A stretch of DNA of 41,521 nt, from the NCBI GenBank assembly GCA_015492495.1, contig WGEY01000049.1:1-41521 (forward strand), given 5' to 3'. This DNA is from Deltaproteobacteria bacterium (GTDB lineage: Bacteria; Desulfobacterota; GWC2-55-46; DRQE01). Both the position numbers and the translations under genes were made by a program. Positions within the stretch are counted from its first letter, which is position 1; each line of letters begins with the position of its first letter. Shown here piece after piece: positions 6,293 through 38,787 of this stretch. The notes under the pieces were generated by a model that searched no databases, was not told the DNA's origin, and saw nothing but the letters and a program-made list of their open reading frames with translations.

Positions 6293-7594
6293 ATGATCAC
6301 CCTAATTTCATTTATAGTAGTCCTGGGCATTCTCATATTCATACACGAGCTCGGACACTTCGCCGTAGCCAAGTTCTCAGGCGTGGGTGTCGAACGTTTT
6401 TCGCTCGGTTTCGGCCCGAGGATTATAGCCGTGAAAAGAGGCGAGACTGAGTACTGCATATCCATTGTGCCCTTCGGTGGATATGTGAAGATGGTGGGCG
6501 AGAGCCCCTCAGAGGATGTGAGCCCCGAGGACAGGAGGAGGTCGTTCACACACAAGCCCCTTTCGGTCCGCTCGGCCATAGTGGCGGCAGGTTCTGTTAT
6601 GAACATCGTGTTAGCCCTTGTGCTCTTCCCGCTCATATTTATGATAGGCGTCCAGGTGCCTGCGTACATGGACGACGAGCCGAGGATAGGCTATGTATAC
6701 GCCGGCGAGGCGGGTGACAAGGCTGGCCTTGAGAAGGGGGACATCATAGAAGAGGTCGACGGCAGGGAGGTGGAGAGCTGGGAAGACCTCTACAAGGTAA
6801 TAGCCCTGAACCCAGACCAGCCGCTTCGTCTCAAGGTAAGGCGTGGTTCCACCACCTTTGAGACGACCCTTGTGCCAGAGTCCTCGGCCGACCTTGGGGT
6901 CGGCATAGGCGGTTTTGCCCCGCAGATGGTCCCCAGGATAGGAGCGCTCGCCCCTGGCTCTCCGGCCGAGAAGGCTGGCCTCAGGCCCGGCGATATCATA
7001 AAGGCAGTAGACGGCAATCCCATAACCCACTGGGCCGAATTGCAGGAGGTCATTCGACACAGCGGGGCCGAGAGGGTGTTCACGATAGAGAGGGATGGTG
7101 AGGTGTTCGACGTCAAAATCACGCCGGAGCTGAACAAAGAAGCCGGAATCTACCTCATAGGGGTCGCCCAGGGTGAGGATACGATAATCAAGAGCTACGG
7201 CTTCTTTGAATCGATACACCTCGGCCTCAAGAAGGCCGTCGAGTTGACAGCGCTTCTCTTTACGGTTCTCAAGGGGCTTATAGTCGGTGACTTCTCGCTC
7301 AAGAGCCTCGGCGGCCCCATCATGATCGCGCAGGTGGCCGGCAAGGCGGCCGAATCAGGTCTGGTGGACCTCTTGTCCATACTTGCGTTCCTGAGCCTGC
7401 AGCTCGGTATAATAAACCTCTTCCCCATACCGGTGCTCGACGGCGGTCACCTCATGTTTTGTTTGATAGAACGGCTGAGGGGAAGGCCGCTCAGTGAGAA
7501 GGTCATGGGCGTGGCCCAGCAGGTAGGTATGGCGCTGCTTATAGTGCTCATGGTGCTCGTGACCTGGAACGACATATTAAGGCTGCTGCGCTGA
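6293..7594 (+). CDS. rseP: RseP-type site-2 zinc metalloprotease
   Basis: This is an intramembrane metalloprotease that cleaves membrane-anchored anti-sigma factors or signal-peptide remnants. The HELGH zinc site is at residues 18-22 in the first membrane helix, and the second catalytic motif LFPIPVLDGGH has Asp near residue 383. Between them are two PDZ domains, each with an 'AGDKAGLEKGD'-like core (about 125-210 and 210-290). At 433 aa it has the two-PDZ architecture of E. coli RseP. A GGAGG ribosome binding site lies 5 nt before ATG 6293. The uppS-cdsA-dxr-rseP order is common in proteobacteria. No anti-sigma substrate is visible here. Confidence 0.95.
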   Translation: MITLISFIVVLGILIFIHELGHFAVAKFSGVGVERFSLGFGPRIIAVKRGETEYCISIVPFGGYVKMVGESPSEDVSPEDRRRSFTHKPLSVRSAIVAAGSVMNIVLALVLFPLIFMIGVQVPAYMDDEPRIGYVYAGEAGDKAGLEKGDIIEEVDGREVESWEDLYKVIALNPDQPLRLKVRRGSTTFETTLVPESSADLGVGIGGFAPQMVPRIGALAPGSPAEKAGLRPGDIIKAVDGNPITHWAELQEVIRHSGAERVFTIERDGEVFDVKITPELNKEAGIYLIGVAQGEDTIIKSYGFFESIHLGLKKAVELTALLFTVLKGLIVGDFSLKSLGGPIMIAQVAGKAAESGLVDLLSILAFLSLQLGIINLFPIPVLDGGHLMFCLIERLRGRPLSEKVMGVAQQVGMALLIVLMVLVTWNDILRLLR

Positions 7595-7606
7595 CCGGTT
7601 GCTTTT

Positions 7607-8308
7607 GTGAAGATACTTGCGTTTGACACATCCTCGGCCTCTGGCAGTATCGCACTTACCGCCGGAGACCGGCTCGTCGGGGAGACCACGGTGGGTTCGG
7701 TCGGGGTCCATGCCGAGTGGCTCATGGAAAGTATAGACGGGTTCCTGAAGGGCCTGGCTACCTCCATCCATGAAGTGGACCTCTTTGCGCTCACCACTGG
7801 GCCGGGTTCCTTTACCGGGTTGAGGATAGGGGTCAGCACGGTGAAGGGGCTTGCCTGGGCGTTAAGAAAACCTGTCGTCGGAGTCTCTACACTCGAGGCA
7901 CTTGCGATGAACCTCCCATACAGTTCAGCACCGGTCTGTCCGGTCCTCGATGCAAGGAAGAGGGAGGTTTACGCGGCCGTTTTCACCCCGGCCGGATCGA
8001 GGTGCGAGAGGATCGTGGAGGATTGCGCCGTAACACCGCAAAGGCTCTTCGAGATCCTTTCATCGGCCGTGGACGGTCCCGTTGTGTTCCTGGGAAATGG
8101 GCTCGAGTTGTACGCCGACGATATCAAGGGGAAGGTGAAAGGCGCGATACTGGCACCCAGGCACCTGTGGTATGTAAGGGCCTCGAACATAGCCCGCATA
8201 GCCTACCGGTCCCGTTACTCTGCGGCCGGGGCCGAGCGCATCAGCCCCGTCTACCGCAGGAAGTCCGAAGCCGAGCTTAAAAAGGATGCGCCCAAGAAGT
8301 CCGGATAG
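7607..8308 (+). CDS. tsaB: tRNA threonylcarbamoyladenosine biosynthesis protein TsaB
   Basis: TsaB is the catalytically inactive ASKHA-fold partner of TsaD in making the universal t6A modification at position 37 of ANN-decoding tRNAs. The N-terminal ILAFDTSSASGSIAL and the TTGPGSFTGLRIGVSTVKGLAWAL segment (from about residue 63) are diagnostic of TsaB; the His metal ligands of TsaD are absent. It is 233 aa, with a GTG start at 7607 that lies 12 nt after rseP and lacks a clear ribosome binding site. It is probably the last gene of the operon. Confidence 0.93.
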   Translation: MKILAFDTSSASGSIALTAGDRLVGETTVGSVGVHAEWLMESIDGFLKGLATSIHEVDLFALTTGPGSFTGLRIGVSTVKGLAWALRKPVVGVSTLEALAMNLPYSSAPVCPVLDARKREVYAAVFTPAGSRCERIVEDCAVTPQRLFEILSSAVDGPVVFLGNGLELYADDIKGKVKGAILAPRHLWYVRASNIARIAYRSRYSAAGAERISPVYRRKSEAELKKDAPKKSG

Positions 8309-8323
8309 CGCAGGGTTGTCGTA

Positions 8324-8352
8324 TTGACAATATTTTGCCCATGGGTTAATAT
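8324..8352 (+). promoter_or_regulatory. sigma-70 promoter for the DUF465 gene
   Basis: A perfect TTGACA (8324-8329) is followed after 17 bp by TAATAT (8347-8352). It sits just after tsaB and about 50 nt before the next start codon, so it can drive the small gene and possibly ilvD. Confidence 0.65.
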
Positions 8353-8399
8353 CTGACATTACCTGTAAGTCTCTTTAACCTTTAAAAAGGAGGTTCTCC

Positions 8400-8618
8400 A
8401 TGAAAGATGAGGGCATTGGAATGGCGGAAAAGCTCCTTAAGGAGAATAAAGAGTTCAGGGATGCATACATAGCGCATCTGGAGTTCAAGAAAAAGGTTGA
8501 GAAGATGGAGAGGAAACCTTTTTTGAGCCACAGGGAGGACCTGGAGAGGAAAAGATTGAAAAAGCTCAAGCTTGCGCTGAAGGACAAGATGGAGAAGATA
8601 ATGGCGCAGCACCGCTGA
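8400..8618 (+). CDS. small DUF465 (YdcH-like) helical protein
   Basis: A 72-aa, highly charged protein, nearly all helix and probably a coiled coil. The arrangement is an N-terminal helix (residues 8-38), a connecting HRED segment, and a second Lys-rich helix ending in LKLALKDKMEKI. This matches the DUF465 family of small proteins, which are frequent in proteobacteria and have no established biochemical role. A strong AAGGAGG site lies 7 nt before ATG 8400, and a near-consensus promoter lies upstream, so it is probably well expressed. It ends 18 nt before ilvD. Confidence 0.8.
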   Translation: MKDEGIGMAEKLLKENKEFRDAYIAHLEFKKKVEKMERKPFLSHREDLERKRLKKLKLALKDKMEKIMAQHR

Positions 8619-8636
8619 ACCGGCATCTATAATATC

Positions 8637-10292
8637 ATGCGAAGCGACAGGATAAAGAAAGGCGTGGAAAGGGTCCCTCACAGGGCCCTTCTATATGCAA
8701 CGGGTGTACCCAGGGGCGAGATGAGAGCCCCTTTCATAGGGGTGGCCTCGAGCTTTACGGACCTCATCCCCGGGCACATAGGAATGAGGGATCTGGAGAG
8801 GTTCATCGAAAAGGGGGTGCATACCGCAGGAGGGTATCCCTTCATATTCGGGCTCCCCGGCATATGTGACGGGATCTCCATGGGGCACAGGGGGATGCAC
8901 TACTCCCTCCCTTCGAGGGAACTTATCGCCGATATCGTCGAGAGCGTTGCGGAGGCCCATGCGCTTGACGGTCTGGTCCTCCTTACGAATTGTGACAAGA
9001 TAACCCCCGGGATGCTTCTGGCGGCGGCGAGGCTTGATATTCCTGCCATAGTGGTCTCGGCCGGCCCGATGATGACCGGACGCTATATGGGCAAGAAGAC
9101 CTCTTTCATAAGAAATACCTTCGAGGCCATGGGCCGTTTCAGGAAGGGCGATATAACCAGACATGAACTCGATGCCTGCGAGATAGGGGCGTGTCCCGGT
9201 GTGGGAAGCTGCCAGGGACTTTATACCGCGAATACAATGAACTCGCTCACCGAGGCCATGGGCATGAGCCTGCCCGGGTGCGGGACTGCGCCTGCGGTAA
9301 CGAGTGAGAAGCGCAGAATAGCCTTTGAAAGCGGATCAAGGGTGGTCGAGCTGGTAAAGAAGAAGATCACTCCCAGAAAGATCATGACCAGGGCGGCCTT
9401 TGAGAACGCAGTCAGGGTGGACCTCGCCCTCGGCGGATCCTCCAACACCGTACTGCATCTCCTTGCGATAGCCCACGAGGCCGGTGTGGATCTGCCGCTG
9501 GAGACATTCGACAGGTTGAGCCGCACGACCCCGCACATAGCCTCGATAGAGCCGGTTGGAGACTATTACATGGAAGACCTCCACTGGGCAGGCGGCATAC
9601 CGGCCATACTGGCAAGGCTCAAGGGAAGGATAAAGGACAACCCCACCGTCTCTGGCCACAGGATTAAGAAGATAATCGAAGGGGTGGACTATATAGACGA
9701 TGAAGTGATAAGGCCCGTAAGACGTGCGTATCATCGTGAAGGCGGTATCGCGGTTCTTAAGGGAAACCTCGCCCCGCTCGGTGCCGTTGTGAAGCAGTCG
9801 GGGGTGAGCGAGAAGATGATGCGTTTCGCCGGCAGGGCGCAGGTCTTCGACAGCGAAGAGGCGGCGATGAGGGCCATTATGAGCAACCGCATACGCAGCG
9901 GTGACGTGGTTGTCATACGGTACGAGGGGCCGAAGGGTGGCCCGGGCATGCGCGAGATGCTCGCACCAACCGCCAATATCGTCGGCACGGGGCTTGGTGA
10001 GTCCGTTGCTCTCATAACCGACGGCAGGTTCTCTGGCGGTACGAGGGGGCCTTGCGTCGGGCATATATCGCCCGAGGCTATGGAGGGCGGCCCCATCGCG
10101 CTCGTAAGGGACGGCGATGTAATAGAGCTTGATATCCCGAAGAGAAGGATCACACTCAGGGTGTCGGCTGAGGAGCTCAAGGCGAGGAAGGCGAAGTGGA
10201 AGCCGCCCGAGCCCAAGATAAAGAAGGGATGGCTTGCCAGGTATGCTAAGATGGTGGGTTCGGCCAACACAGGTGCGGTGCTCAAGGCCTGA
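8637..10292 (+). CDS. ilvD: dihydroxy-acid dehydratase
   Basis: IlvD dehydrates 2,3-dihydroxy acids to the 2-keto acids of valine and isoleucine synthesis, using an Fe-S cluster and Mg2+. Family motifs are clear: [39 protein letters not shown] (cluster Cys near residue 120), [17 protein letters not shown] (cluster Cys near 193), [12 protein letters not shown] and the C-terminal [20 protein letters not shown]. At 551 aa it has normal length. ATG 8637 lacks an obvious ribosome binding site, so it may depend on coupling with the gene 18 nt upstream. It supplies the step missing from the ilvBNC cluster that follows. Confidence 0.97.
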
Positions 10293-26959: not shown

Positions 26960-29749
26960 TCAATATAGGAGCCTGTAGCTTGCAAGGAGCCTTAGGTATT
27001 CATCTTCAGTCCCCTTGAATCCCTTCACGTATTCTATGCCGGCCGATAGGCTGTCCCTTCTCAGGACGCCTCCACCGATCCCTACGCTGGTGCTGAACCC
27101 GGGACCTGTCTTGTCATTCAACGTCACATCGAGGCTTAGAAAGGGCCTCCACGGCCCTGCATGGCCGTAACGGTCGTCGAGGCCGAAGAGAACCCCGGCC
27201 CCCGCCATGTTGTAGCTTTCGGGCAGCACGCTTTCCGGTTCGTAGGGGAAGAGCGTCCTTATGGCGCCCTTGTCCCGGGTGCCTTCGTTAAACCGTACCG
27301 AGTCGAGGTAGACCCTGACGGTATAGTCCGGATAACCCGTCCTGACCCTGTAGGAGGCCTCGGAGTATACGTTCATGCTGCTTCCGACCGACGGGCCGTC
27401 CTGGGAACGGAACCGCTGGTAGGAGAGGCGTACGTTGAGGGTTGAGCGCCGCTCGAAGCTGTACGATGCCGAGACCGCGTAGCGATCCTTTATCCCGGCC
27501 AGATGGAGGTACACGTTCTCATCCGCGCGCACGTTTTTTCCGTAGAAGAGCCCCAGACGTATCCCGTTGAGGAGATGGTATGAATCCAGGCCGACCGTAT
27601 AAAAGACGTTTTCTTTGATCCCCTTGTGGGAGCCTGCGGCCAACTTCAGTCTGCCCCTGTCGAAGAGCCGCGACAACCTGATGCCGTAGATGTTCCTGCT
27701 GTCGGGTGCGTTTACAAGGCTTGCTTTGTCACTGTCGACGGTCCGGCCGCCGGTGTAGAAGAACGCCGCTTCGAAGCCCTTTGAGATGTCCAGCTCAAAG
27801 GAAATCTCTTCGGCGGTCTCCTCGTACGGTCCCCTCTCTTCGTAGTACAAAGTAACCCCCGCTGTCTGCTGGTAGTTTCTTGCCAGGTCAGAGAACTGCT
27901 TGTAGAGGAGATGATCCTCCCTGTTCTTATAGAGCCCCAGGTAGGCATGTTGCATGGCATCCTTGATCCGTCCGGTTCTTCTGAGCGCCTCCACCCGGTC
28001 CCTCGCCGGAAGCGTGTAGGGGTGTTTTCCAAGGAGTTCCGCCATATCGTACCTCGCATCCTCCCACAGGGCGAGGTTCAGGTACATCCACGGTCTTGCG
28101 GCATAATTGTACTTCCTTATAAGGTGTTCCACCATGGTCCTGCCCTCTATGCCCATCAGATAGGAGAGCTCTATGTCGTTCGCCGTCTTTTGGGGCAGCA
28201 CCTCTTTTGCAAGCGCCATGTATCCGGCCACAATGCGCGGGGACTCGTAGTAAGGTGCGACCCTCAGAAACTCCTCAAGGAACCTTCCGTCCTCAAGGAG
28301 CTCCGGGTTCTTCTTCAACTTGTCGCGCATGTCCCTGTATATGTTGAACCTCAGGGCCTCGGCCTCTGCATGCCTGCCGTACAGGGAGAGTATATCCGCG
28401 CGAAGAAGCCTTGTGGTGGCTGTGTCGTCAGGCAGTCGTTCAGCGAGCGTGAGGGCCTTTCGGCCGTTTCCTATCTTCGCGTACAGGAGGGTGAACGGCA
28501 TGAGCAGACCGGGTTCGTTCGCAAGCCTTCCGTAATCCCGTGCCACCCCCTTTAGCCCCCTGTCATCTTCATAGTCGAGCAGGAGATAGATGTACTGCGA
28601 CAGAAGCTCCTTGGAGAAGTTTTCCTTGAGTACCCTGGCATACAGCCTCTTGGCATGCTCGGGTCCCCTTGCGTTCCTGAGCGCCTGCGCATACACGGCG
28701 GTGAAGTACGGGTCTTTCAGGAACCTCTCGATATCCTCCCTGTCGAGCCTCTTGATCTCCGTTACGATCTGGTCCCATCTTCCAAGCGACGCCGCGGCGG
28801 TGAGAAAATGGTATAATAGATAGCTCGTTCTGAAGCTGCGCCATCCCTCCAGGGCGTAGTTCATCGCACGGCCGGGATCCTTTCCGTTCCAGTAAAGAAA
28901 TAGCCTCTCGTAGTCCACGGCCCTCGCCCTGCCTGTTCGGCGCAGGATTCGGCTAGCCTGGACAGAAGTGTCGTATTCCTGGAGCCCCCAGGCGAGGTCG
29001 CTCATGGTCTCCCAGTAACGGGCATCCCCGGGTGAGGCCTTGTCCATGTGCCTTTTCAGAAGATCGAGCGCATCGGCATACCTCCTGAGAGAATAGAGGA
29101 CCTCGGTGTAGAACAACGCATCATCGGGCTTGAGCCCGAACGTCTCCTCCGTCTCTCGAAGTATACGGGCCGCGTCTTCGGGCCTTCCGTAAGAGAAGTA
29201 GATCCTTGCAAGGTGCCCCGCAACCTTTCTGTCCCGGTCCTTCTCTATGATTCCCTCAAGCACCGCGATCAGCGCGTCTATGTCTCCTGATTGCTCGTAT
29301 ACGAACAGGATATTCTTAATGTCGTCCACCTTGCCGGACTCTATGTCCTCTTCCATAAGTTCCTTTGCAAGGTCGAACCTGTTGAGCGCCACGGCAAGAG
29401 AGAAGGCCTTCTTTCTGAGGGTGTCCTTTCCGGAGAGCCTGTACGCGGTGATGTATGCCCTGAGGGCATCGTCGCTTCTGCTCCTCCAGGAACTTATCTC
29501 CGCAACCCTCTCCCACCAGTAAGGATCTTCTGGAAAGAGCCTGGTACCTTTTTCGGCCACGACCGAGGCGTTTTTCAGGTCACCGGAGGCGAGAAAGGTG
29601 GAAAGAAGCAGCCTCAGAAGAGTCTCTTTCCTGCCCCCGGCCCTGTCCTCCTTTTCCGTCTCTCCCCGATCCATCTTCTTGCCGAGGGCCGGCTGTACGT
29701 TACAGAGGAGGGCCATGCCTACAAGAACGGTTATAAGACTCCTTACCAC
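26960..29749 (-). CDS. pelB: PelB C-terminal half: exported TPR and outer-membrane beta-barrel protein
   Basis: This corresponds to the TPR and barrel part of PelB, the outer-membrane porin for Pel polysaccharide. Residues 1-23 are a signal peptide (VRSLITVLVGMALL, cleavage after QPALG). About residues 40-620 are repeated helix pairs of TPR type, with PEDA and DAL motifs. From about 640 onward come alternating amphipathic strands ending in an aromatic (SYRLLY), as in outer-membrane barrels. Length is 929 aa. The start is GTG 29749, overlapping the preceding gene by 7 nt in another frame. The preceding 263-aa protein supplies the N-terminal part of PelB, so PelB is split here. Export of Pel is inferred from the gene set. 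Confidence 0.85.
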   Translation of the reverse strand: MVRSLITVLVGMALLCNVQPALGKKMDRGETEKEDRAGGRKETLLRLLLSTFLASGDLKNASVVAEKGTRLFPEDPYWWERVAEISSWRSRSDDALRAYITAYRLSGKDTLRKKAFSLAVALNRFDLAKELMEEDIESGKVDDIKNILFVYEQSGDIDALIAVLEGIIEKDRDRKVAGHLARIYFSYGRPEDAARILRETEETFGLKPDDALFYTEVLYSLRRYADALDLLKRHMDKASPGDARYWETMSDLAWGLQEYDTSVQASRILRRTGRARAVDYERLFLYWNGKDPGRAMNYALEGWRSFRTSYLLYHFLTAAASLGRWDQIVTEIKRLDREDIERFLKDPYFTAVYAQALRNARGPEHAKRLYARVLKENFSKELLSQYIYLLLDYEDDRGLKGVARDYGRLANEPGLLMPFTLLYAKIGNGRKALTLAERLPDDTATTRLLRADILSLYGRHAEAEALRFNIYRDMRDKLKKNPELLEDGRFLEEFLRVAPYYESPRIVAGYMALAKEVLPQKTANDIELSYLMGIEGRTMVEHLIRKYNYAARPWMYLNLALWEDARYDMAELLGKHPYTLPARDRVEALRRTGRIKDAMQHAYLGLYKNREDHLLYKQFSDLARNYQQTAGVTLYYEERGPYEETAEEISFELDISKGFEAAFFYTGGRTVDSDKASLVNAPDSRNIYGIRLSRLFDRGRLKLAAGSHKGIKENVFYTVGLDSYHLLNGIRLGLFYGKNVRADENVYLHLAGIKDRYAVSASYSFERRSTLNVRLSYQRFRSQDGPSVGSSMNVYSEASYRVRTGYPDYTVRVYLDSVRFNEGTRDKGAIRTLFPYEPESVLPESYNMAGAGVLFGLDDRYGHAGPWRPFLSLDVTLNDKTGPGFSTSVGIGGGVLRRDSLSAGIEYVKGFKGTEDEYLRLLASYRLLY

Positions 29750-30534
29750 GTGTTCTCACTCTGGAGGTTCTTCAATATAACGAGGGCGACCGTTCTTGCG
29801 AACGACACGTCACCCGTTGCCAGGGCCGAGGCGAGCACGAACTGCGCCATCTCCACATCAACTGAAAACTCTTTCCCATAGAGGGATATGAGTCTTTTCA
29901 CCATTCCGTAATCCCCGCCCCATAGGGCTGCCTCCACGGCACCCCTGAAGTAGGGGAACCGCTTTCGGTGGTCGATCTCGGTACGCAAGGCGGCTTCGTG
30001 GTATTCGATCGCCTTTGCGTAATCGTTCGTATACAGTGCAGCCTCGGCCGCCTTTTCATACCATGAAGGATCCTTTTCCGCGATAGCCAGTCTCTGGGCG
30101 TAGTTCCGGGCCGTCTCGTAGTCCCTGAGGGATACGGCGAGCCTGTAGGATACGAGGAGCCAGTCCGGGTTTTCTTCCATGCCGGTCCTTGATGCCGCAA
30201 CCTCCTTAAGAAGCCGGCCCGCCCTTTTGTAATCATTGACCGTCACGAACCTCCGTGCGAGCATGAGCTTCAGCCTGTCGTCCGGCTTAACCCGCACGAG
30301 ATTCTCCAGGTAGGCGATGCTGAGATCGATATTGGTCTCCTCACCGGCGAGAAGCAGCCTCTCCATTCCGAAGCCCGGATAGAGGAGCACCATCGAGGCG
30401 GCTATCACCAGGACCAGGAGGGTAAGCTCCCTGTATTCAAAAAACCTGGCCCTTACATCTTGCCCTAATGACCGCTTCGTTGGCGTCCTTGAATCTGTAA
30501 ACCGTAACCGCGCCTTTCTTCTTTCTTCGCTCAA
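29743..30534 (-). CDS. pelB: PelB N-terminal half: inner-membrane-anchored TPR protein
   Basis: A 263-aa protein with a basic cytoplasmic N-terminus, one membrane helix (LTLLVLVIAASMVLL, residues 37-51) and then TPR-like helix pairs (about 66-250, such as SIAYLENLVRVKPDD and AKAIEYHEAAL). This matches the N-terminal part of Pseudomonas PelB, and together with the next gene totals about 1,190 aa, the size of intact PelB. The start is TTG 30534, with a strong AAGGAGG 5 nt upstream, lying 98 nt inside the 3' end of pelA. It probably tethers the export channel to the inner-membrane synthase through periplasmic TPRs. The name pelB for this half is an inference from position and architecture. Confidence 0.8.
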   Translation of the reverse strand: MSEERRKARLRFTDSRTPTKRSLGQDVRARFFEYRELTLLVLVIAASMVLLYPGFGMERLLLAGEETNIDLSIAYLENLVRVKPDDRLKLMLARRFVTVNDYKRAGRLLKEVAASRTGMEENPDWLLVSYRLAVSLRDYETARNYAQRLAIAEKDPSWYEKAAEAALYTNDYAKAIEYHEAALRTEIDHRKRFPYFRGAVEAALWGGDYGMVKRLISLYGKEFSVDVEMAQFVLASALATGDVSFARTVALVILKNLQSENTW

Positions 30535-33217
30535 AGCCGCCTCCTTTTACGTGTACCTCGCACCCTGACTCTTCTACAGCGAATTCGAGCGGAAGGTAGC
30601 CTTTAAGCCCTATGGAGACCTGCCCTTTCCCCTTGTTGTGGAAGACCACCTGTCCGTTGGCCTCTATAAGCCTGAACCCGGGTCGTCTCTTGTCCGTGAA
30701 TGTGACGCGGTAATCTCCGGACCCGTCGAGGTGTATGTATATGACCTCGCCCGCCTCCCTGTACCCGACCACCCCCCTGGAACGAACCGGATCCGGATAG
30801 CCTCGGCCCTTTTCGATCTTCAGTGTCTTCATGCGGCCGCCGTCCCTTGCCGCAAGCTCACCGTTGATTCGGCCCACGGCCATATCCCTGAACCCGTGCA
30901 CCCTGGCGGCATACTCCGAAAGAAACATGGGATTCGTCTCCTGCGATAGCGCCCATGCGTAAACCTTCTTCAATGCCCTGAGGGATGCGATCTTCTGGCC
31001 GGAGTAGAAGTGGTAGTATATGCCGATGGGTTTCAACCGCCTCGGCCTTTCGGTGAGCTCGAATGTCTGGATTACGTTCGAGTACCCGTAGTACGGCCCG
31101 GTCCAAAGGCCGGTATAGAGGTTTTCGTTCTGAACAGGCGCGTAGACCTGAAAGTAGGGCCCCCTGTTTACACCCATGGGTGAGACGAAGACCAAAAACG
31201 GCCTTGAACGTGTCATCTGCGTGTCCCCTCCGTTTACGTTGTAGATCCCGAGCCGGTAGGTCATCTTCACCGCATCTTCGGGTGGCTGGCAGTCACCGGT
31301 CCATAGAAAGACCGAGAGCCTTTTGCCCTTGGGGGCAAGCCTTGTGTTTATGTATTCGGTCGATCCCTTTATCTCCCTTTCGAGGTCGAACCTGTAACCG
31401 GGCAGGGGGAGTATGTAGCGTTTCCCAGTGGCGGCCTCTGTGCCGGATCTCAGCGCCTTCCATACGAACGGATGGCTGTAGCTGTGGGATGCGGCCTCAA
31501 CGTTCTCCATCGCGAATATGGATCTCGCCACCTCTTCGAGCCTGGCGGACCTTTCGGGGTAAAGCCCCCACGGGGCGACCTCTCCTTCGATTACGGCGAC
31601 CGTGTGAGGCACCGCGAACCTTTTGAGTATCTCATCCCTTATGACCTCGCCGATGAGCCTCTTCCTGTCGAAGTCAGCGTATCCGAAGAAACTGTCGCCA
31701 TCTATGTGGGCCGTAAGTATCCTCCTGCCGTTCTCCGTGGTCACATCCGGCACCGGGGTCGTCACAGGACCGAAGACCGTCTTGAACACCTCGAAGGGGT
31801 CGTACGCCCAGGCGTCGAACCCCTTTACTATCAATGCGCCGTCGAGGGCGTAACCGCCCCACGGGGTGAGGGCGAAGGGGACAGATTCATCCCCGTTCTC
31901 GTCCTCGACTACGAGGAGCGGTGTACCCTCTTCAGGAGAAAGCCGCGGGACGGTCGGATCCACTGAAGGGGATACCTCGAAGAACGGCAGGATGCTTTTC
32001 TTTATCTTGAACGGCCAGAGTCTCTTCTCTCCTGCCTTGAGTATGTTTATCCCGAGCGGGGCGAGGAGCCTCTTATTCGCCGGGAAGCCGAAGCCGTCGA
32101 GGAAGAAGACCTTCAGCCCCTCTTCTATCCGCTCGGTTATCCATTGGTGGAATTCGTGGTAATCGTCAAGCCCTCCGGTCCAGACCACCGCGCCCGCGTA
32201 GGCACCGGTCATGTAGTCCCAGGGAGGCCCCTTTTTTACGTCCCTGAGCTCGGGTACAAAGCCTAGGTACTCCAGCGGCAACTGTACGAACCTGTGTATA
32301 TCGGTCAACGACTCTTCTTTCTGCCTGTCGGAGTTGTAAAAGAGAAGAATCCTTCTCGGCACGGGCTCGCAGTTACCGGTGCCCATCGTTGAGAGGTTGT
32401 AATCGCTTATGTAGGAGAGAAATCCGAGCTCAGAGATCCGACGTGCCACATCCCTTTGGAGCCCCCTGTTCCCCGGGCTCACGTAGTCCACAACGATTAC
32501 AGGCAGTCCGTATTCTTTCACCTTCCGAAGCCTCTCTGTGAGCCATCGCGTCTCCTCGCCGTCCATTTCCCTGTAATCCATGGCCTCGGTGTCAAGTCCA
32601 TGGAACAGGCCTTCTGCCAGAACACCGTCGACATAGCGGTGGATACTGTCCATGATCTCGAAGCCTCTGTTCACTATGATCATGATCCCGGGAAAGCGCT
32701 CCTTGAGTTTACTTATGAAGAGGACCTCGGCCTCCTCGTATCCCTTCCAGTCGCCTTTTTCGAGCACGAGCCTGTATGAGTCCAGCGTGTCGAGAAACAA
32801 TCCGTCGTAGCCCTGTTTCACGATGGGCGTTATGACACTGTCCACCAGGAAGCGCCTGTAGGCGGGGTTTCTCAGGTCCACAACGAGGCTGCCCCATGCC
32901 CTGTTTTCTCCGAGCACCCATTCCCTTTTAACATCCTTGAAGTGGTCTCTGTGGGGACCCCTTTCCGCTACACTCACGTACGCAAAAAGCCTTGCCCGCC
33001 TCTCGCCCATATAGGACCTCTCCCGCAGCCTTTCCATGGAGAATGTGTCGGGATCGACTATCAACCAGTCGTAGAAGTAAAGGGCCTCATCCGGGGGGGA
33101 TTTTGCGTAGAAGAGAGCCACGCACTCGGGGGCGCTGCCCGCACGGGATGGAGGAGCGGCGAGGAAGGCGATTAACACCATGCTAATGAAGCATGAAAGT
33201 CTGATAATGGACTTCAT
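30437..33217 (-). CDS. pelA: PelA: periplasmic Pel glycoside hydrolase and deacetylase
   Basis: PelA trims and de-N-acetylates the Pel polymer in the periplasm. Residues 1-26 are a signal peptide (cleavage after PSRA). An N-terminal TIM-barrel hydrolase domain has YDGLFLDTLDSY and DGVLAEGLFHG, whose Glu202 is the likely catalytic acid of the PelA hydrolase. A middle domain (about 290-420) follows. The polysaccharide deacetylase domain has AHIDGD (His504, Asp506, Asp508) and the HSYSH metal site (His578, His582). The C-terminal 130 residues are beta-rich. Length is 926 aa, close to Pseudomonas PelA. ATG 33217 has GAGGAG 8 nt upstream and overlaps pelG by 35 nt. Confidence 0.92.
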   Translation of the reverse strand: MKSIIRLSCFISMVLIAFLAAPPSRAGSAPECVALFYAKSPPDEALYFYDWLIVDPDTFSMERLRERSYMGERRARLFAYVSVAERGPHRDHFKDVKREWVLGENRAWGSLVVDLRNPAYRRFLVDSVITPIVKQGYDGLFLDTLDSYRLVLEKGDWKGYEEAEVLFISKLKERFPGIMIIVNRGFEIMDSIHRYVDGVLAEGLFHGLDTEAMDYREMDGEETRWLTERLRKVKEYGLPVIVVDYVSPGNRGLQRDVARRISELGFLSYISDYNLSTMGTGNCEPVPRRILLFYNSDRQKEESLTDIHRFVQLPLEYLGFVPELRDVKKGPPWDYMTGAYAGAVVWTGGLDDYHEFHQWITERIEEGLKVFFLDGFGFPANKRLLAPLGINILKAGEKRLWPFKIKKSILPFFEVSPSVDPTVPRLSPEEGTPLLVVEDENGDESVPFALTPWGGYALDGALIVKGFDAWAYDPFEVFKTVFGPVTTPVPDVTTENGRRILTAHIDGDSFFGYADFDRKRLIGEVIRDEILKRFAVPHTVAVIEGEVAPWGLYPERSARLEEVARSIFAMENVEAASHSYSHPFVWKALRSGTEAATGKRYILPLPGYRFDLEREIKGSTEYINTRLAPKGKRLSVFLWTGDCQPPEDAVKMTYRLGIYNVNGGDTQMTRSRPFLVFVSPMGVNRGPYFQVYAPVQNENLYTGLWTGPYYGYSNVIQTFELTERPRRLKPIGIYYHFYSGQKIASLRALKKVYAWALSQETNPMFLSEYAARVHGFRDMAVGRINGELAARDGGRMKTLKIEKGRGYPDPVRSRGVVGYREAGEVIYIHLDGSGDYRVTFTDKRRPGFRLIEANGQVVFHNKGKGQVSIGLKGYLPLEFAVEESGCEVHVKGGGFERRKKKGAVTVYRFKDANEAVIRARCKGQVF

Positions 33218-34553
33218 TGAAAAATCTCCTCAGGAATATGACGCCCAGAAGGCTTGAGACCAGGAGCGACAGTACGAACCCGTAACCGTAGTAATAGGGG
33301 CCGAGCGATATCGATACTTGGCTGAAGACGAGGTTCAGAAACAAGAAGACGCCGCTCAGTATCAGTGCTTCTCTTCGTTTGTCGAAGTAGAAGGCAAGCG
33401 CCAGAATCGACATGAGCATGAGCTGAAGAAAGGTGCCTATGCTCAGGATATTGAAAAGCGGTATGTACAGTAGGGAGAGCCCGAAGAACCTGAATATGAG
33501 CCGTTCGAAGAGAAAGACGAAGATCGTCCCTATGGCCTGCACCCTCAAGACATCGAGTATTATGGTCCTCGCAGAGTCCACCATCTCGTCTCCGATGCTG
33601 TAGAGCCTATCGAGGGTCGCTCCCTCGGTGACCGCCTTGTAGTACCTGTCGTAAACCTCGGCGAACTCGCCTTCGACCTTCAAAAAGAGCGATGCCATGC
33701 CAGGCGCTATTGTCAGGTAAGCGAGAAAGACCGGTATATCGTACATGACGGACGCCCTCAGAGGACCTATGATACTTTCACTCGTCGCCTCGTTGAACCA
33801 GAATACGAACTTATCCGCCCATACACCCGTATTGTAGAGGAAGCCGGTGAGTATGAGGGAAGGGTATATTCTGTCGCTTCTTGTAAAATCGAAGTCCACT
33901 ATCTTCTCAGACCTGTAGGAGCGGATGAGGTGGCCGGAGAGCATGACTATCAGTATGGCCTGGCCGGTGAGAAAGGACGACATGAGCCCCCTGAGTCCGT
34001 ACCCTGCCAGGAGGTACGACAATGCGAGAAATGTCCCGTAACCCGCGAGGAAGGAGTAGAGTATGTACCTGTAGCTCTTAAGGCTGGTAAGAAGTATGTT
34101 GATCGTCCATACCCCGCACAGCGTGGTGAAGGTGAAGAGGAACAAGATAGAGTAGAGTGTTCCCGTACCCTTGAACGCGAGTATTACGAACACCGCGCAG
34201 ATGATGAACCCGCTCAGCATGTTCAGAACAAGGGCGCCCATGAAGTTCGGCAGCACGGCCTGGAACCTTTTCTCGAAGATCCTGTCGGAGACGTATCTTG
34301 ACAGGACGAACTGGGAAAAGCCCGCATACACCAGGCTGAATGCGACCAGGTATGTTACGCTCACCTGGAACTGCCTCACCAGGGCCTTGTCTTCAACGAA
34401 CCTGTAGGCGAGCCAGCCGGAGAAGATGATGCTCAGTATGGATATGAAGTATGGCCCGGAGCTGAGCATGGCCGAGTATCCGAAGGCCCTCAAGACGGAG
34501 GTCAGTTTTCTGTCGCGCAGTATCCTTTTAAGTTCAAACCCTATTCCAGCCAT
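33183..34553 (-). CDS. pelG: PelG: polytopic Pel transporter (MOP-like)
   Basis: PelG is the multi-helix membrane protein thought to move Pel across the inner membrane with PelF, PelD and PelE. The N-terminus MAGIGFELKRILRD closely follows the known PelG start, and about twelve hydrophobic helices span the 456 residues, the same length as the Pseudomonas protein. ATG 34553 lies 20 nt inside the pelF 3' end; the frame is open further upstream but that part is out of register with homologues. It overlaps pelA by 35 nt. Confidence 0.93.
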   Translation of the reverse strand: MAGIGFELKRILRDRKLTSVLRAFGYSAMLSSGPYFISILSIIFSGWLAYRFVEDKALVRQFQVSVTYLVAFSLVYAGFSQFVLSRYVSDRIFEKRFQAVLPNFMGALVLNMLSGFIICAVFVILAFKGTGTLYSILFLFTFTTLCGVWTINILLTSLKSYRYILYSFLAGYGTFLALSYLLAGYGLRGLMSSFLTGQAILIVMLSGHLIRSYRSEKIVDFDFTRSDRIYPSLILTGFLYNTGVWADKFVFWFNEATSESIIGPLRASVMYDIPVFLAYLTIAPGMASLFLKVEGEFAEVYDRYYKAVTEGATLDRLYSIGDEMVDSARTIILDVLRVQAIGTIFVFLFERLIFRFFGLSLLYIPLFNILSIGTFLQLMLMSILALAFYFDKRREALILSGVFLFLNLVFSQVSISLGPYYYGYGFVLSLLVSSLLGVIFLRRFFNEVHYQTFMLH

Positions 34554-36051
34554 CGGTCTCGTCCCTGTATATCTCCCTGTAGGCGTCGATGAACCTGTCC
34601 ATGGTATAGTATGATTCAACCCTTTTTATTCCAGCCTCCCGGCACCTCTTCCAGTACTCCACATCGGAGAGCAGCCGGATGTATGCCACGGCGAGCGCCC
34701 TGGGGTTCGCTATGGGAGTCACCTCTCCGGCGGCCCCTATCCTGATGTCGGCATCATCCGGCCCGCCTTGGATGAGTTGCCTGCAGGAGCCCACGTCGGT
34801 TGTCACAACCGGGACCCCCGCGGCAAAGGCCTCGATGACCACCAGCGGCATGCCCTCGCTTACCGAGGTGAGGGTGACTATGCCTGAGGCGGGCAACACT
34901 TCGTGGATGTCCCTTCGCCCGAGGAACCTGACGCTTTCGCTCAACCCGAGGGCCTCCACCAGCCTTATACATTCGCTGTAATACTCGGGATCTTCATCGG
35001 TAGGTCCGACCACCCATCCCTGCACACCGGGCATGCTCTGGACCACCACCTTCATTGCGTTGATAAATGTCTTGATGTCCTTTATGGGGACGACCCTCCC
35101 TATGAGGGTGACCACCCACGGGACACCGTCTTTTCTGTCCACTCTCAGCTTAGAGAGGGCCTTCAGGTCCACGCCGTTCGGAATGGTGCGTGTCTTCTCG
35201 GGGGCCGCCCCGAGGCCGATCTGTATCTGTCTTGCGCCGTCAAAGAGGGAGATGATGAGGTCTGCGGCATTATAGGTGAACCTTCCTATGCTTTCGAAGA
35301 AGTTGATCCATATCTCTCTCAGGTGTTCCATCTCTCCATGCCTCTTTTGGAAGAAGAACCGCCTGTCAACGAGCCAGTCCGCGTTCATGAGATCTATCTT
35401 TCTCTCTCTCGTGTATATGCCGTGCTCGGTGAGGATGAGACGCCCCCTCCGGCCGTGTCTCAAAAGGGAGGCCAGGAACCCTGCGTACCCGGTGGAGGGA
35501 CTGTGTATGATCCTGTGTGGCGGGACCCTCTCAGCGATACCGGCAAGCCGCCATATCGGGGCATGAACGTTCCTGATCGTCCAGAAGTAATCCACGAACG
35601 GAGATTCCGTGTCGTAATTGAAGTACAGCTCCTTTATGAACCTCCAGGCGTTCCTGCCGTAAAGAAACGCCTCCTCCTTCAGATAGGCCGTGTAGAACTC
35701 CATGGAGCTCAGATCTCCCGGCAGCCCCTCTGTATGCCTCTCCTTGAACCACTTGTGGAGCTCCCGTATCCGCTCAAGGGCCTCTTCGTCCATGTCGTGC
35801 CCTGTTGGTGCCGGCCTTTCGCGGTCATCGAAGATGAAGTGGCTTTCGAGGTGTACGAGGTTGGCGGGGAGTTCAAACCTTCTTTCTCCGTAATCGTCAG
35901 GTCTTGCACCTATGAATACCACTCCGAAGCGGTATTCGGGCAGGCCCGTGATGAGGTGGTGAATCCAGGTAGAAACACCGCCGCTGATGTAGGGGTACGT
36001 ACCCTCCGCCATTATGAGAACGTCGATGTCCTTTGTCCCGTTCCTTTCCAT
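34534..36051 (-). CDS. pelF: PelF: cytoplasmic GT4-type Pel glycosyltransferase
   Basis: PelF is the UDP-sugar-dependent polymerase of Pel. It has a GT-B fold: N-terminal VLIMAEGTYPYISGGVSTWIH (about 10-31), and a C-terminal nucleotide-sugar domain with LIGRVVPIKDIKTFINAMK and the E-x7-E motif in SEGMPLVVIEAFAAGVPVV. There is no signal peptide or membrane helix. Length is 505 aa, against about 507 in Pseudomonas. ATG 36051 overlaps the pelE 3' end by 40 nt and pelG begins inside its 3' end, so the three are tightly coupled. Confidence 0.93.
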   Translation of the reverse strand: MERNGTKDIDVLIMAEGTYPYISGGVSTWIHHLITGLPEYRFGVVFIGARPDDYGERRFELPANLVHLESHFIFDDRERPAPTGHDMDEEALERIRELHKWFKERHTEGLPGDLSSMEFYTAYLKEEAFLYGRNAWRFIKELYFNYDTESPFVDYFWTIRNVHAPIWRLAGIAERVPPHRIIHSPSTGYAGFLASLLRHGRRGRLILTEHGIYTRERKIDLMNADWLVDRRFFFQKRHGEMEHLREIWINFFESIGRFTYNAADLIISLFDGARQIQIGLGAAPEKTRTIPNGVDLKALSKLRVDRKDGVPWVVTLIGRVVPIKDIKTFINAMKVVVQSMPGVQGWVVGPTDEDPEYYSECIRLVEALGLSESVRFLGRRDIHEVLPASGIVTLTSVSEGMPLVVIEAFAAGVPVVTTDVGSCRQLIQGGPDDADIRIGAAGEVTPIANPRALAVAYIRLLSDVEYWKRCREAGIKRVESYYTMDRFIDAYREIYRDETDGWNRV

Positions 36052-37025
36052 ATCTCTATAATATCCTTCAACTGGTTGCTGAATACAGCCTCGGTCTCCA
36101 TATGGGAGAATAGTTCCTTTACAGCCTTGTAATCCTTCCTGCGGAAGTAGATCTCGGCGAGGTAGGGTATGGTCCTCGCAGCCGGCGCGTCGAGTTCGCG
36201 GGCCTTTTCCAGGTAGGAGAGCGCCTTGTCGTGGAGATTCTTCTTGAGGCAGGCCTTGCCGAGCAGCACGTATGTGGCCGAATCGGAGGGGCTTTCCCTG
36301 AGCGATAGTTCGGCCCAACGTATGGCCTCGTCCAGCGCGGCTTCCCTGACCGCCTCGTCGACTATGTTGAAGTAGACGAGGTCATGGTAGGCCTGTGCCA
36401 GTTCCTTCTGTATCTCGGCCCTCTTGTATCCGCTTTTCTCCGCTTTGAGCGCCTCCTTCAGTGCGTGTATCCTGTCCGTGTACTGCTTTTCCACGTTGCT
36501 CATGATGCCGAAGGCGTACAACCTGACCTCGTCCGCCGGGTTGGATAGGCCGGCCTTTATTATTCTGAAGGCATCCGGCCTCCCGAAGCCCGAAAGCCCG
36601 GTAAATACCCTCTGCTTCAGTTCAACCGGCGCCTCTTTGGTTTCGAGTATCCTTGTGAAAGCACCTTCACCGAACCTTCTGTCCCCGAGCCGCAGGTCCT
36701 CTTCCATGATATCGGCGGTTGAGATGCTCTCTGCCGGAACAAGGCGGCTCGGCCTCTGTCGCGACAGCAATATGAAGACCGGTATCACGGAGATGTATCC
36801 AAGAAAGAACGTGGAGAATCCGAAGGTGAAAAGTACGATGAAGCCGTCGGCCCGTTGCCCTCGGTACCTTTCAGGAAGCATGCGGCAGAGTATCAGGGCG
36901 ACGAGGGATGCAGCCGCAGCATGGGCTGAGACCAGGGCGAGGACGGTTAGGGGATGGCCCCAGGGCAGGGGCCATGAAAAGGCCGTCTCCCTTGCCGTGT
37001 GCAGGAGGTTGAGAAGGCCGTTCAT
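36012..37025 (-). CDS. pelE: PelE: inner-membrane protein with TPR domain
   Basis: PelE is a scaffold of the Pel inner-membrane complex. Two membrane helices (about 24-49 and 61-88) are followed by a soluble helical domain with TPR motifs (such as SATYVLLGKACLKKNLHDKALSYLEKA). It is 337 aa, near the 329 aa of Pseudomonas PelE. Sequence is poorly conserved in this family, so the call rests on architecture and on its place between pelD and pelF. ATG 37025 overlaps the pelD stop (ATGA) and has GGAGGAAAGGG immediately before it. Confidence 0.85.
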   Translation of the reverse strand: MNGLLNLLHTARETAFSWPLPWGHPLTVLALVSAHAAAASLVALILCRMLPERYRGQRADGFIVLFTFGFSTFFLGYISVIPVFILLSRQRPSRLVPAESISTADIMEEDLRLGDRRFGEGAFTRILETKEAPVELKQRVFTGLSGFGRPDAFRIIKAGLSNPADEVRLYAFGIMSNVEKQYTDRIHALKEALKAEKSGYKRAEIQKELAQAYHDLVYFNIVDEAVREAALDEAIRWAELSLRESPSDSATYVLLGKACLKKNLHDKALSYLEKARELDAPAARTIPYLAEIYFRRKDYKAVKELFSHMETEAVFSNQLKDIIEIWKGTGQRTSTFS

Positions 37026-38299
37026 CCCTTTCCTCCGGAAACGTCGAGGCAGGTCCGAAGCACCTCGTCCGGACTCTCCTTTAGATTGACCACACGGTAG
37101 TTTACATTGCTTGCGAACCGGTCCATGCCCATGAAGCTTATCATCCTCTTTTTCATACGCTCCAGGAAGCTCGCTGCCCCCTGGGGGCCTGCAAAGGGCA
37201 GGATGGTGACATAGGCTTCCATACCCCCATCGAGGGTGATCCTGCATGCCATGTCGAGCGCCCTCAGGTTCTCCCTTATGACCACCTCCGTTTCCAGCGG
37301 GGTCTCCCTTATGTAAAAGACCACCACGGTACTTTCCACGCCGGTATGGGTGTAAAGATCGTGGTGTCTTTTTACCTCCTTCAGGAAGTCAGCCGGGAAG
37401 ATGTCGAAGTCAGCCATCAGCGGCCGGATATCCTTTAGTACGGTCTCCTCCTTGTACAGATAGTAGAGCAGCAGGTAGAACAGAAAGAGGTTGTCCTTGT
37501 TCAAGGATGTGAAGGGCATCTCCTTTATGAGCAGTAACGCCTTTGCGTCTTCTTCAACCACCGGCACCACCGCCAAGTACCTTGACCTCTCTTCCTCCAT
37601 GTTCAGCATCGATACGTAGCAGACCCTGCCTTCCTCGATGGCCTTCTGCACCAGCGGATCGTCCAACTCCATCGGCACGTCTTTGCCGACCGATGCGATC
37701 CTTTCAAAGGTGTTGCCGGTCTTTCCGTAAAGAGACGCCTCCTCGAGGTTGAAGTTGTCGGCTATAAGCCTCATCAAGACACCGTATGCGTGCCTTCTGT
37801 CGCCCCCTGCAAGGGTTTTCCTGATCCCTGAGATTATCCCCCTCAGGCTGACTGGCCTTATGAGGTAGTTCCTTTCGAGCTGGTCATGTGAGGTCTTAAG
37901 CAGGATGAAACTCTTGGCCATGTCATCCAGTTTGTCCTCCAGGTAGTCCACCTTCAGCCGCGCCTTTTCCGTCTGTTTCTTCCAGTAGAATTGAAATTCC
38001 CCCATTATCAGTACGAGCAGCAGGTGCCACAGGAGGTAGGTCGCGGGAAAGGGCTCGTACCAGTAGTAGACCAGCGGGGCGGCGACAGACAGCGCTACAA
38101 GACCGGCACCCAACCCGTAATACAGGGTGATGACCATAAGGATGATCAAGAGGTAGCTTACGTTTTTGCTTATCAAGAGCGGGTCGGACGGGTTTACCAA
38201 ATAGCCCGCTACGGTAAGCCCGCCCGTGAGGACGAATATCTCTCCCAGCAATACCTTGAGGCTGACTTCTTGGGAAGAGAACGAGGTTTTTATTTTCAT
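37022..38299 (-). CDS. pelD: PelD: membrane c-di-GMP receptor of the Pel synthase
   Basis: PelD is the inner-membrane receptor that activates Pel synthesis on binding cyclic di-GMP. The 425-aa protein has about four N-terminal membrane helices (residues 13-125), a short coiled coil (KARLKVDYLEDKLDDMAKSF), a GAF-like domain (about 165-285) and a degenerate GGDEF domain. An RxxD motif, Arg346-Ala-Leu-Asp349, lies where the inhibitory-site-type c-di-GMP motif is expected. The active-site GGDEF signature is absent, as in other PelD proteins. ATG 38299 overlaps the pelC stop by 4 nt. Confidence 0.88.
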   Translation of the reverse strand: MKIKTSFSSQEVSLKVLLGEIFVLTGGLTVAGYLVNPSDPLLISKNVSYLLIILMVITLYYGLGAGLVALSVAAPLVYYWYEPFPATYLLWHLLLVLIMGEFQFYWKKQTEKARLKVDYLEDKLDDMAKSFILLKTSHDQLERNYLIRPVSLRGIISGIRKTLAGGDRRHAYGVLMRLIADNFNLEEASLYGKTGNTFERIASVGKDVPMELDDPLVQKAIEEGRVCYVSMLNMEEERSRYLAVVPVVEEDAKALLLIKEMPFTSLNKDNLFLFYLLLYYLYKEETVLKDIRPLMADFDIFPADFLKEVKRHHDLYTHTGVESTVVVFYIRETPLETEVVIRENLRALDMACRITLDGGMEAYVTILPFAGPQGAASFLERMKKRMISFMGMDRFASNVNYRVVNLKESPDEVLRTCLDVSGGKG

Positions 38300-38787
38300 C
38301 TGACGAGCTTGTCCATCAGTTTTTGAGCGATGGTCCCGAGCGATTCATGTGACCAGCCCGTGGCAGAGCCCGTTGAACTCCAGACGACTTCGTCCTTTTC
38401 GAGGCTGTAGATGACCATGGTGATACTCACCGCCGGCTCACCGTCTATACCGGTTTTATACCTGAACTCGTTTACGGCTCCGGTGAAGGCGTATTCAACC
38501 CCGCTCCTTCGTGCCTTCTTTAAGAGCTCCCTTATCTCCGCCGGTGCAAGATCCCTGTCCCCGGATTCCTTGAACCTCCCTTTAACGGCGTATCCTCTGG
38601 CCCTAAGTATGCCATCGAGCATGGAGGCGGCCCTGAGGCCGGCCATCGGTGTCTCCGTATGGTTTTCAAATGGCAGCACTACGACCGTAGCGGTACTTGG
38701 CAGCACCAGTGGAGCGGCTCTGTTCATGACGCTCGAACATGAAAAGAGCACGCAACCGAGTAATGCAAGCAAGATGATCCTTGACAT
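38296..38787 (-). CDS. pelC: PelC: outer-membrane-associated lipoprotein
   Basis: A 163-aa lipoprotein with a short signal peptide ending in the lipobox LFSC (Cys17). The mature part starts with VVVLPFENHTETPMAG, then an alternating alpha/beta domain with EYAFTGAVNEFRYK and ending VWSSTGSATG. In Pseudomonas, PelC (about 172 aa) forms a ring under the PelB channel. A strong GGGAGGTAAGG precedes ATG 38787. It is the first gene of the operon, after a long leader. The family is divergent; the call relies on lipobox, size and position before pelD. Confidence 0.85.
   Translation of the reverse strand: MSRIILLALLGCVLFSCSSVMNRAAPLVLPSTATVVVLPFENHTETPMAGLRAASMLDGILRARGYAVKGRFKESGDRDLAPAEIRELLKKARRSGVEYAFTGAVNEFRYKTGIDGEPAVSITMVIYSLEKDEVVWSSTGSATGWSHESLGTIAQKLMDKLVR

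Follow-up and report, generated by a model that had tools for sequence, protein, structure and literature searches.

In alginate export, the TPR scaffold and the outer-membrane barrel are separate proteins, AlgK and AlgE, held in non-covalent contact; AlgK is an outer-membrane lipoprotein and the cut lies between the TPRs and the barrel. For cellulose and PNAG, BcsC and PgaA combine a TPR scaffold with a 16-strand barrel, and in Pseudomonas aeruginosa a single PelB chain is proposed to span both membranes (PMC12141448). The PelA-binding repeats of P. aeruginosa PelB (PaPelB) are TPR9-14, with a crystal fragment covering residues 332-436 (PMC12022489). A "pelB fission" is named for aquatic thermophiles in the legend of Fig. 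5iii of Bundalovic-Torma 2020 (PMC7112194); a literature search that covered few subscription journals yielded no other account of a split pelB.

We analyzed a 41,521-nucleotide contig of a deltaproteobacterium (the window), in which a pel operon with pelA, pelD, pelF, and pelG includes a PelB encoded not as a single chain but as two ORFs, with two starts and a signal segment on the second. An initial annotation, made from the sequence alone, had described these ORFs as encoding 263 and 929 aa in different frames with a 7-nt overlap, and they exist as described. The features of the locus are as follows.

29743..30534, minus strand: small subunit gene, 263 aa, encoding the N-terminal part of PelB: a basic tail, then a membrane helix and a TPR solenoid
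30382..30435, minus strand: residues 34-51 of the small subunit, a membrane helix according to the model and hydropathy
26960..29749, minus strand: large subunit gene, 929 aa, encoding the remainder of PelB: a signal peptide, TPRs, and a barrel of 16 strands
29681..29749, minus strand: residues 1-23 of the large subunit, a predicted signal peptide with its site between ALG and KK by the -3,-1 rule
27875..29611, minus strand: residues 47-625 of the large subunit, its TPR and alpha-rich scaffold according to the model helices
26966..27865, minus strand: 16-stranded PelB barrel (residues 629-928), from PF24604, 16 model strands, and 9h80_M
29743..29749, minus strand: stop/start overlap of the small and large genes, 7 nt
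30437..30534, minus strand: overlap of the small gene with the 3' end of pelA, 98 nt
30437..33217, minus strand: pelA, GH114 domain (E 9e-19), same position in relatives
33183..34619, minus strand: pelG, PF16933 (E 2e-137)
34534..36318, minus strand: pelF, NF038011 (E 1e-188), match from residue 99; the listed TTG probably lies upstream of the true start
36012..37247, minus strand: pelE, membrane segment and TPRs, assigned by position, alignment, and TPR matches; the ORF start is probably too far upstream
37022..38299, minus strand: pelD, PF16963 (E 1e-10)
38296..38787, minus strand: pelC-like lipoprotein, lipobox LFSC by eye and a sub-threshold LpoB match; before pelD as in locus L032

The genes of the window (26960-38787) run in the order C-D-E-F-G-A-BN-BC, so that pelA and pelB close the operon. 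The Campylobacterota loci that we read agree with this; many Desulfuromonadia loci, unlike the window, show the order A-BN-BC-C-D.

The large protein scored over the cut-off of the PelB barrel family PF24604 (E 1e-42) and matched TPR_15 (E 2e-37), and its profile retrieved PaPelB residues 287-1174 from the PDB (E 1e-61). Its predicted structure consists of a low-confidence signal region, helices at 47-625, and 16 strands at 629-928, corresponding to the C-terminal barrel of PelB; the best PDB match of this model is the cryo-EM structure of PelB (9h80, chain 9h80_M; E 4e-16, TM 0.82 by target length). The N-terminus resembles a signal peptide, with a hydrophobic core, one basic residue, and A-x-G. 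PDB entry 5wft (PaPelB 332-436) aligned at positions 83-177 of the large profile, and this subunit thus carries, by alignment, the periplasmic TPR scaffold together with the counterpart of the PelA-binding repeats, where binding is predicted.

The 263-aa protein alone gave weak TPR matches in a domain profile search. Its profile retrieved PaPelB residues 12-266 from the PDB (E 2e-12), ranked above all generic TPR proteins; searches of the PDB with single sequences gave no PelB match, whereas the profiles of both proteins did. In the predicted structure (mean pLDDT 86), helix 34-51 precedes 12 further helices that form a TPR solenoid, and hydropathy peaks at 2.4 at residue 37, behind an arginine-rich tail. 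We infer that the small subunit is anchored in the inner membrane by an uncleaved helix that precedes the first TPRs, a predicted topology that agrees, by profile and model, with the N-terminal part of PelB. A Foldseek search with the small-subunit model returned generic TPR proteins only and gave no specific information; 9h80 resolves only 391 residues around the barrel. The identification of both proteins with PelB, and the makeup ascribed to each in the initial annotation (a membrane-anchored TPR protein, here still a prediction, and a protein with signal peptide, TPRs, and barrel), are thereby borne out.

The cut lies between two TPRs, at the equivalents of approximately residues 266 and 287 of PaPelB and upstream of the PelA-binding repeats, so that TPR9-14 map wholly within the large subunit. 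In profile alignments, the PaPelB equivalent of the last small-subunit repeat runs directly into that of the first large-subunit repeat, with no extra linker. A single-chain PelB of 1213 aa (L105:5261-8902, genome G515) occurs among split Campylobacterota relatives and is a natural fusion with neither linker nor internal signal peptide, indicating that the split and fused states interconvert at this boundary. According to simple rules, used in place of a trained predictor, a hydrophobic signal-like segment opens the large subunit in 33 of the 33 split loci listed, and none is present at any fused PelB junction that we read. Large subunits of split loci that lack an extra domain (see below) measure 919-948 aa, and small subunits range from 192 to 384 aa; that of the window is without about 107 aa (about three TPRs) carried by its nearest relatives. 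The initial annotation had pointed out that the two lengths sum to the Pseudomonas total; this holds for the window genome and fails for the relatives (369 + 930 and 369 + 932 aa), so the agreement is a coincidence.

We consider it probable that the locus encodes a two-part PelB in which a TPR stub in the inner membrane and a TPR-barrel subunit in the outer membrane dock end to end, giving a non-covalent bridge. Both subunits would be synthesized equally. The small one would stay in the inner membrane through its uncleaved helix and keep the first periplasmic TPRs close to the synthase, toward the Pel emerging from PelD, PelE, PelF, and PelG. The large one would be exported with a cleaved signal peptide and would place its barrel in the outer membrane, the TPRs facing inward and carrying the region to which PelA would bind. 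The two solenoids would then pack end to end at the repeat boundary, rebuilding the single PaPelB scaffold, and Pel would pass from the synthase via PelA to the pore along this non-covalently held bridge. A non-covalent TPR contact between the PelB halves, already deduced in the initial annotation, is a plausible and good inference: on a single PaPelB chain, the matches of the small and large profiles lie next to each other, and the position of the cut between TPRs that abut in P. aeruginosa favors it. The small-subunit length range, on the other hand, is odd for a bridge of fixed length.

The main rival to end-to-end docking is that PelB has two parts whose halves do not dock, the inner-membrane stub serving the synthase (PelD/E/F/G) or PelA, and the polymer being handed over across a gap or through PelA. 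We regard this as unlikely, though deserving of serious consideration. Betaproteobacterial fusions carry long low-complexity linkers at the boundary (an estimated 22-107 aa), which suggest that the halves are tethered and not stacked rigidly; the length of the small subunit is highly variable, that of the large one almost constant; and PelA of P. aeruginosa binds TPR9-14, all in the large-subunit equivalent (PMC12022489). A cut between repeats that abut without a linker in both P. aeruginosa and L105 argues against it and for docking.

Whether docked or not, the small protein could in principle be a second PelE-like TPR membrane protein that stands outside PelB, which we find very improbable. 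It shares with PelE a general make-up of membrane helix and TPRs, but a separate pelE is present at 37247-36012, and similarity to PelE along the length was not found: the small profile aligned with PelE over 45 columns, i.e. one TPR, at 65% probability. Against the N-termini of fused PelB proteins (from Caballeronia, Azonexus, Paraburkholderia, Pseudoalteromonas, and one Campylobacterota genome), the same profile aligned over 284 columns, nearly its full length, at 100% probability (E 5e-42).

The arrangement of the two genes also bears on whether they are expressed as separate products. The small gene starts with TTG and the large gene with GTG, and the 7-nt overlap between them reads GTGGTAA. 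GGAGG lies five bases upstream of the TTG, which, at 30534, is the sole ATG, GTG, or TTG before the membrane helix; the overlap with pelA is therefore needed for the anchor. The initial annotation had mentioned neither this start within pelA nor its uniqueness. In two relatives of the same family (L030 and L031), the small gene starts at the same place inside pelA, also with TTG. In nearly all split loci the small and large genes overlap by 4 or 1 nt (4 nt being the commonest value in relatives), which suggests that their translation is coupled. A single product made through programmed frameshifting at the overlap is more improbable still: the shortness of the overlap speaks for it, but the large frame is closed by an in-frame stop two codons upstream of the large-gene start, the slip window spans a few bases with no obvious slippery heptamer, and the product would carry a mid-chain signal peptide, which is absent from natural fusions.

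A survey of related pel loci, as proposed in the initial annotation, showed that the split is common. In the family of the window, all three genomes with a match (window included) are split, the two relatives being 46-48% identical; the intact single pelB in a close relative that the initial annotation had named as a refutation was not found there. A scan of named genomes, queried with a profile of split proteins that could favor split forms, returned 22 split loci out of 22, those of Trichlorobacter thiogenes and Pelotalea chapellei among them. For this reason, Desulfuromonadia and Campylobacterota were surveyed with the PF24604 barrel instead, a search without bias toward split forms. Among Desulfuromonadia, 25 of 277 genomes scored above the cut-off and all 24 that were examinable were split, the remaining one lying at a contig end. 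Among Campylobacterota, PF24604 was found in 12 of 249 genomes, 10 with a two-part PelB, one with a fused (L105), and one with a three-part form (L107). No relative was found in the viral contigs searched. Single chains were present in 5 of 5 betaproteobacterial plasmid copies examined, in a Pseudoalteromonas copy, and in P. aeruginosa, a sample drawn from plasmids and one PDB chain only. We treat the single chain as typical of PelB but not defining, since most surveyed homologs outside Beta- and Gammaproteobacteria are without it, and the split pelB is neither a local oddity nor wholly new. The conservation of a two-part, and once a three-part, PelB indicates that covalent continuity across both membranes is not required.

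Between L030 and L031, the two closest relatives, dS and dN were 0.81 and 0.17 for the small gene and 1.26 and 0.21 for the large gene, a dN/dS of approximately 0.2 that points to purifying selection on both pelB ORFs. In a draft genome of 112 contigs with two ORFs in different frames, one might suspect a frameshift introduced by sequencing or assembly, or a pelB that is decaying into a pseudogene. Conservation refutes this reading: the split recurs in more than 35 genomes of two phyla, in some of them on single contigs of 2-4 million bases. The start and signal segment of the second ORF, selection on both ORFs, and the lack of internal stops also argue against it, and its probability is negligible. 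The proposal of a true split is thereby strongly supported.

In an unrooted tree of large subunits, which includes some long branches and is without Gammaproteobacteria and Aquificota, split forms fall on both sides of the deepest division drawn. The fused betaproteobacterial forms make up one group, and fused L105 stands beside split L115 (99% SH-aLRT). Two changes are needed either way, i.e. two fusions, or one fission plus one fusion; because a split and a fused ancestor each demand at least two, we call the overall direction neither "fission" nor "fusion". Tentatively, we put forward the possibility that the Pel conduit began as a non-covalent TPR bridge of several subunits (an inner-membrane stub and an outer-membrane barrel subunit, in one case three pieces), from which the single-chain PelB of Pseudomonas and Burkholderia was derived by fusion.

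Several loci depart from the common two-part form. At L107 (G498:C1:405000-415800, minus strand, on a 1.8-Mb contig), pelB consists of three overlapping genes of 361, 548, and 573 aa, encoding a membrane-TPR part, a signal-TPR part, and a part with signal, extra domain, and barrel, the second and third each having their own signal segment. PelB of an Azospirillum thermophilum plasmid (L060:4090-7146 and 7232-8812) is divided at another place, into a 1018-aa membrane-anchored TPR-only protein and a 526-aa signal-peptide protein with a weak match to the PelB barrel. The extra domain occupies residues ~20-100 of the barrel subunit, between the signal peptide and the TPRs, in L106, L108, L109, L113, L107, and L115/L055; it has the pattern CYTVQLxS...TVRCGC, and L115 seems to hold two copies of the domain. 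This Campylobacterota domain is possibly peptidoglycan-binding; the likeness of these large subunits to SPOR domains is faint (best E 0.13) and we do not claim it. In addition, two alphaproteobacterial loci, on plasmids of Sulfitobacter and Cereibacter (L059 and L061), have pelF and pelG and a protein of the "polysaccharide biosynthesis/export family", but no PelB is annotated in them; perhaps a PelF/PelG product takes another export route there.

The split PelB marks the natural joint of the proposed bridge and provides protein pairs for probing whether this joint is a real contact. It also has a practical consequence, as annotation that seeks a PelB of 1,190 aa will overlook or wrongly label a part of many pel loci outside Beta- and Gammaproteobacteria.

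Compared with known systems, the window pair is closest to P. aeruginosa PelB (9h80, 5wft; PF24604), to which it is homologous over nearly the whole length and with which it shares a membrane helix, a TPR scaffold, and a 16-strand barrel in the same order within a pel operon; the difference is that the latter is one chain of 1,193 aa, whereas the window encodes two chains with an additional signal peptide. BcsC and PgaA are single chains, and the structural match of the large protein to BcsC is far weaker than that to PelB. AlgK-AlgE resembles the window in its non-covalent two-protein scheme, as proposed here for PelB, but AlgK is not an inner-membrane anchor and the cut is elsewhere. The "pelB fission" of aquatic thermophiles is, like the window, a split pelB within a rearranged pel operon; it is named there in a legend only, and the text describes neither a cut site nor a signal peptide, a topology, or a mechanism (PMC7112194). 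The two-part PelB is part of a known export system, in a widespread and under-described architecture with partial precedent.
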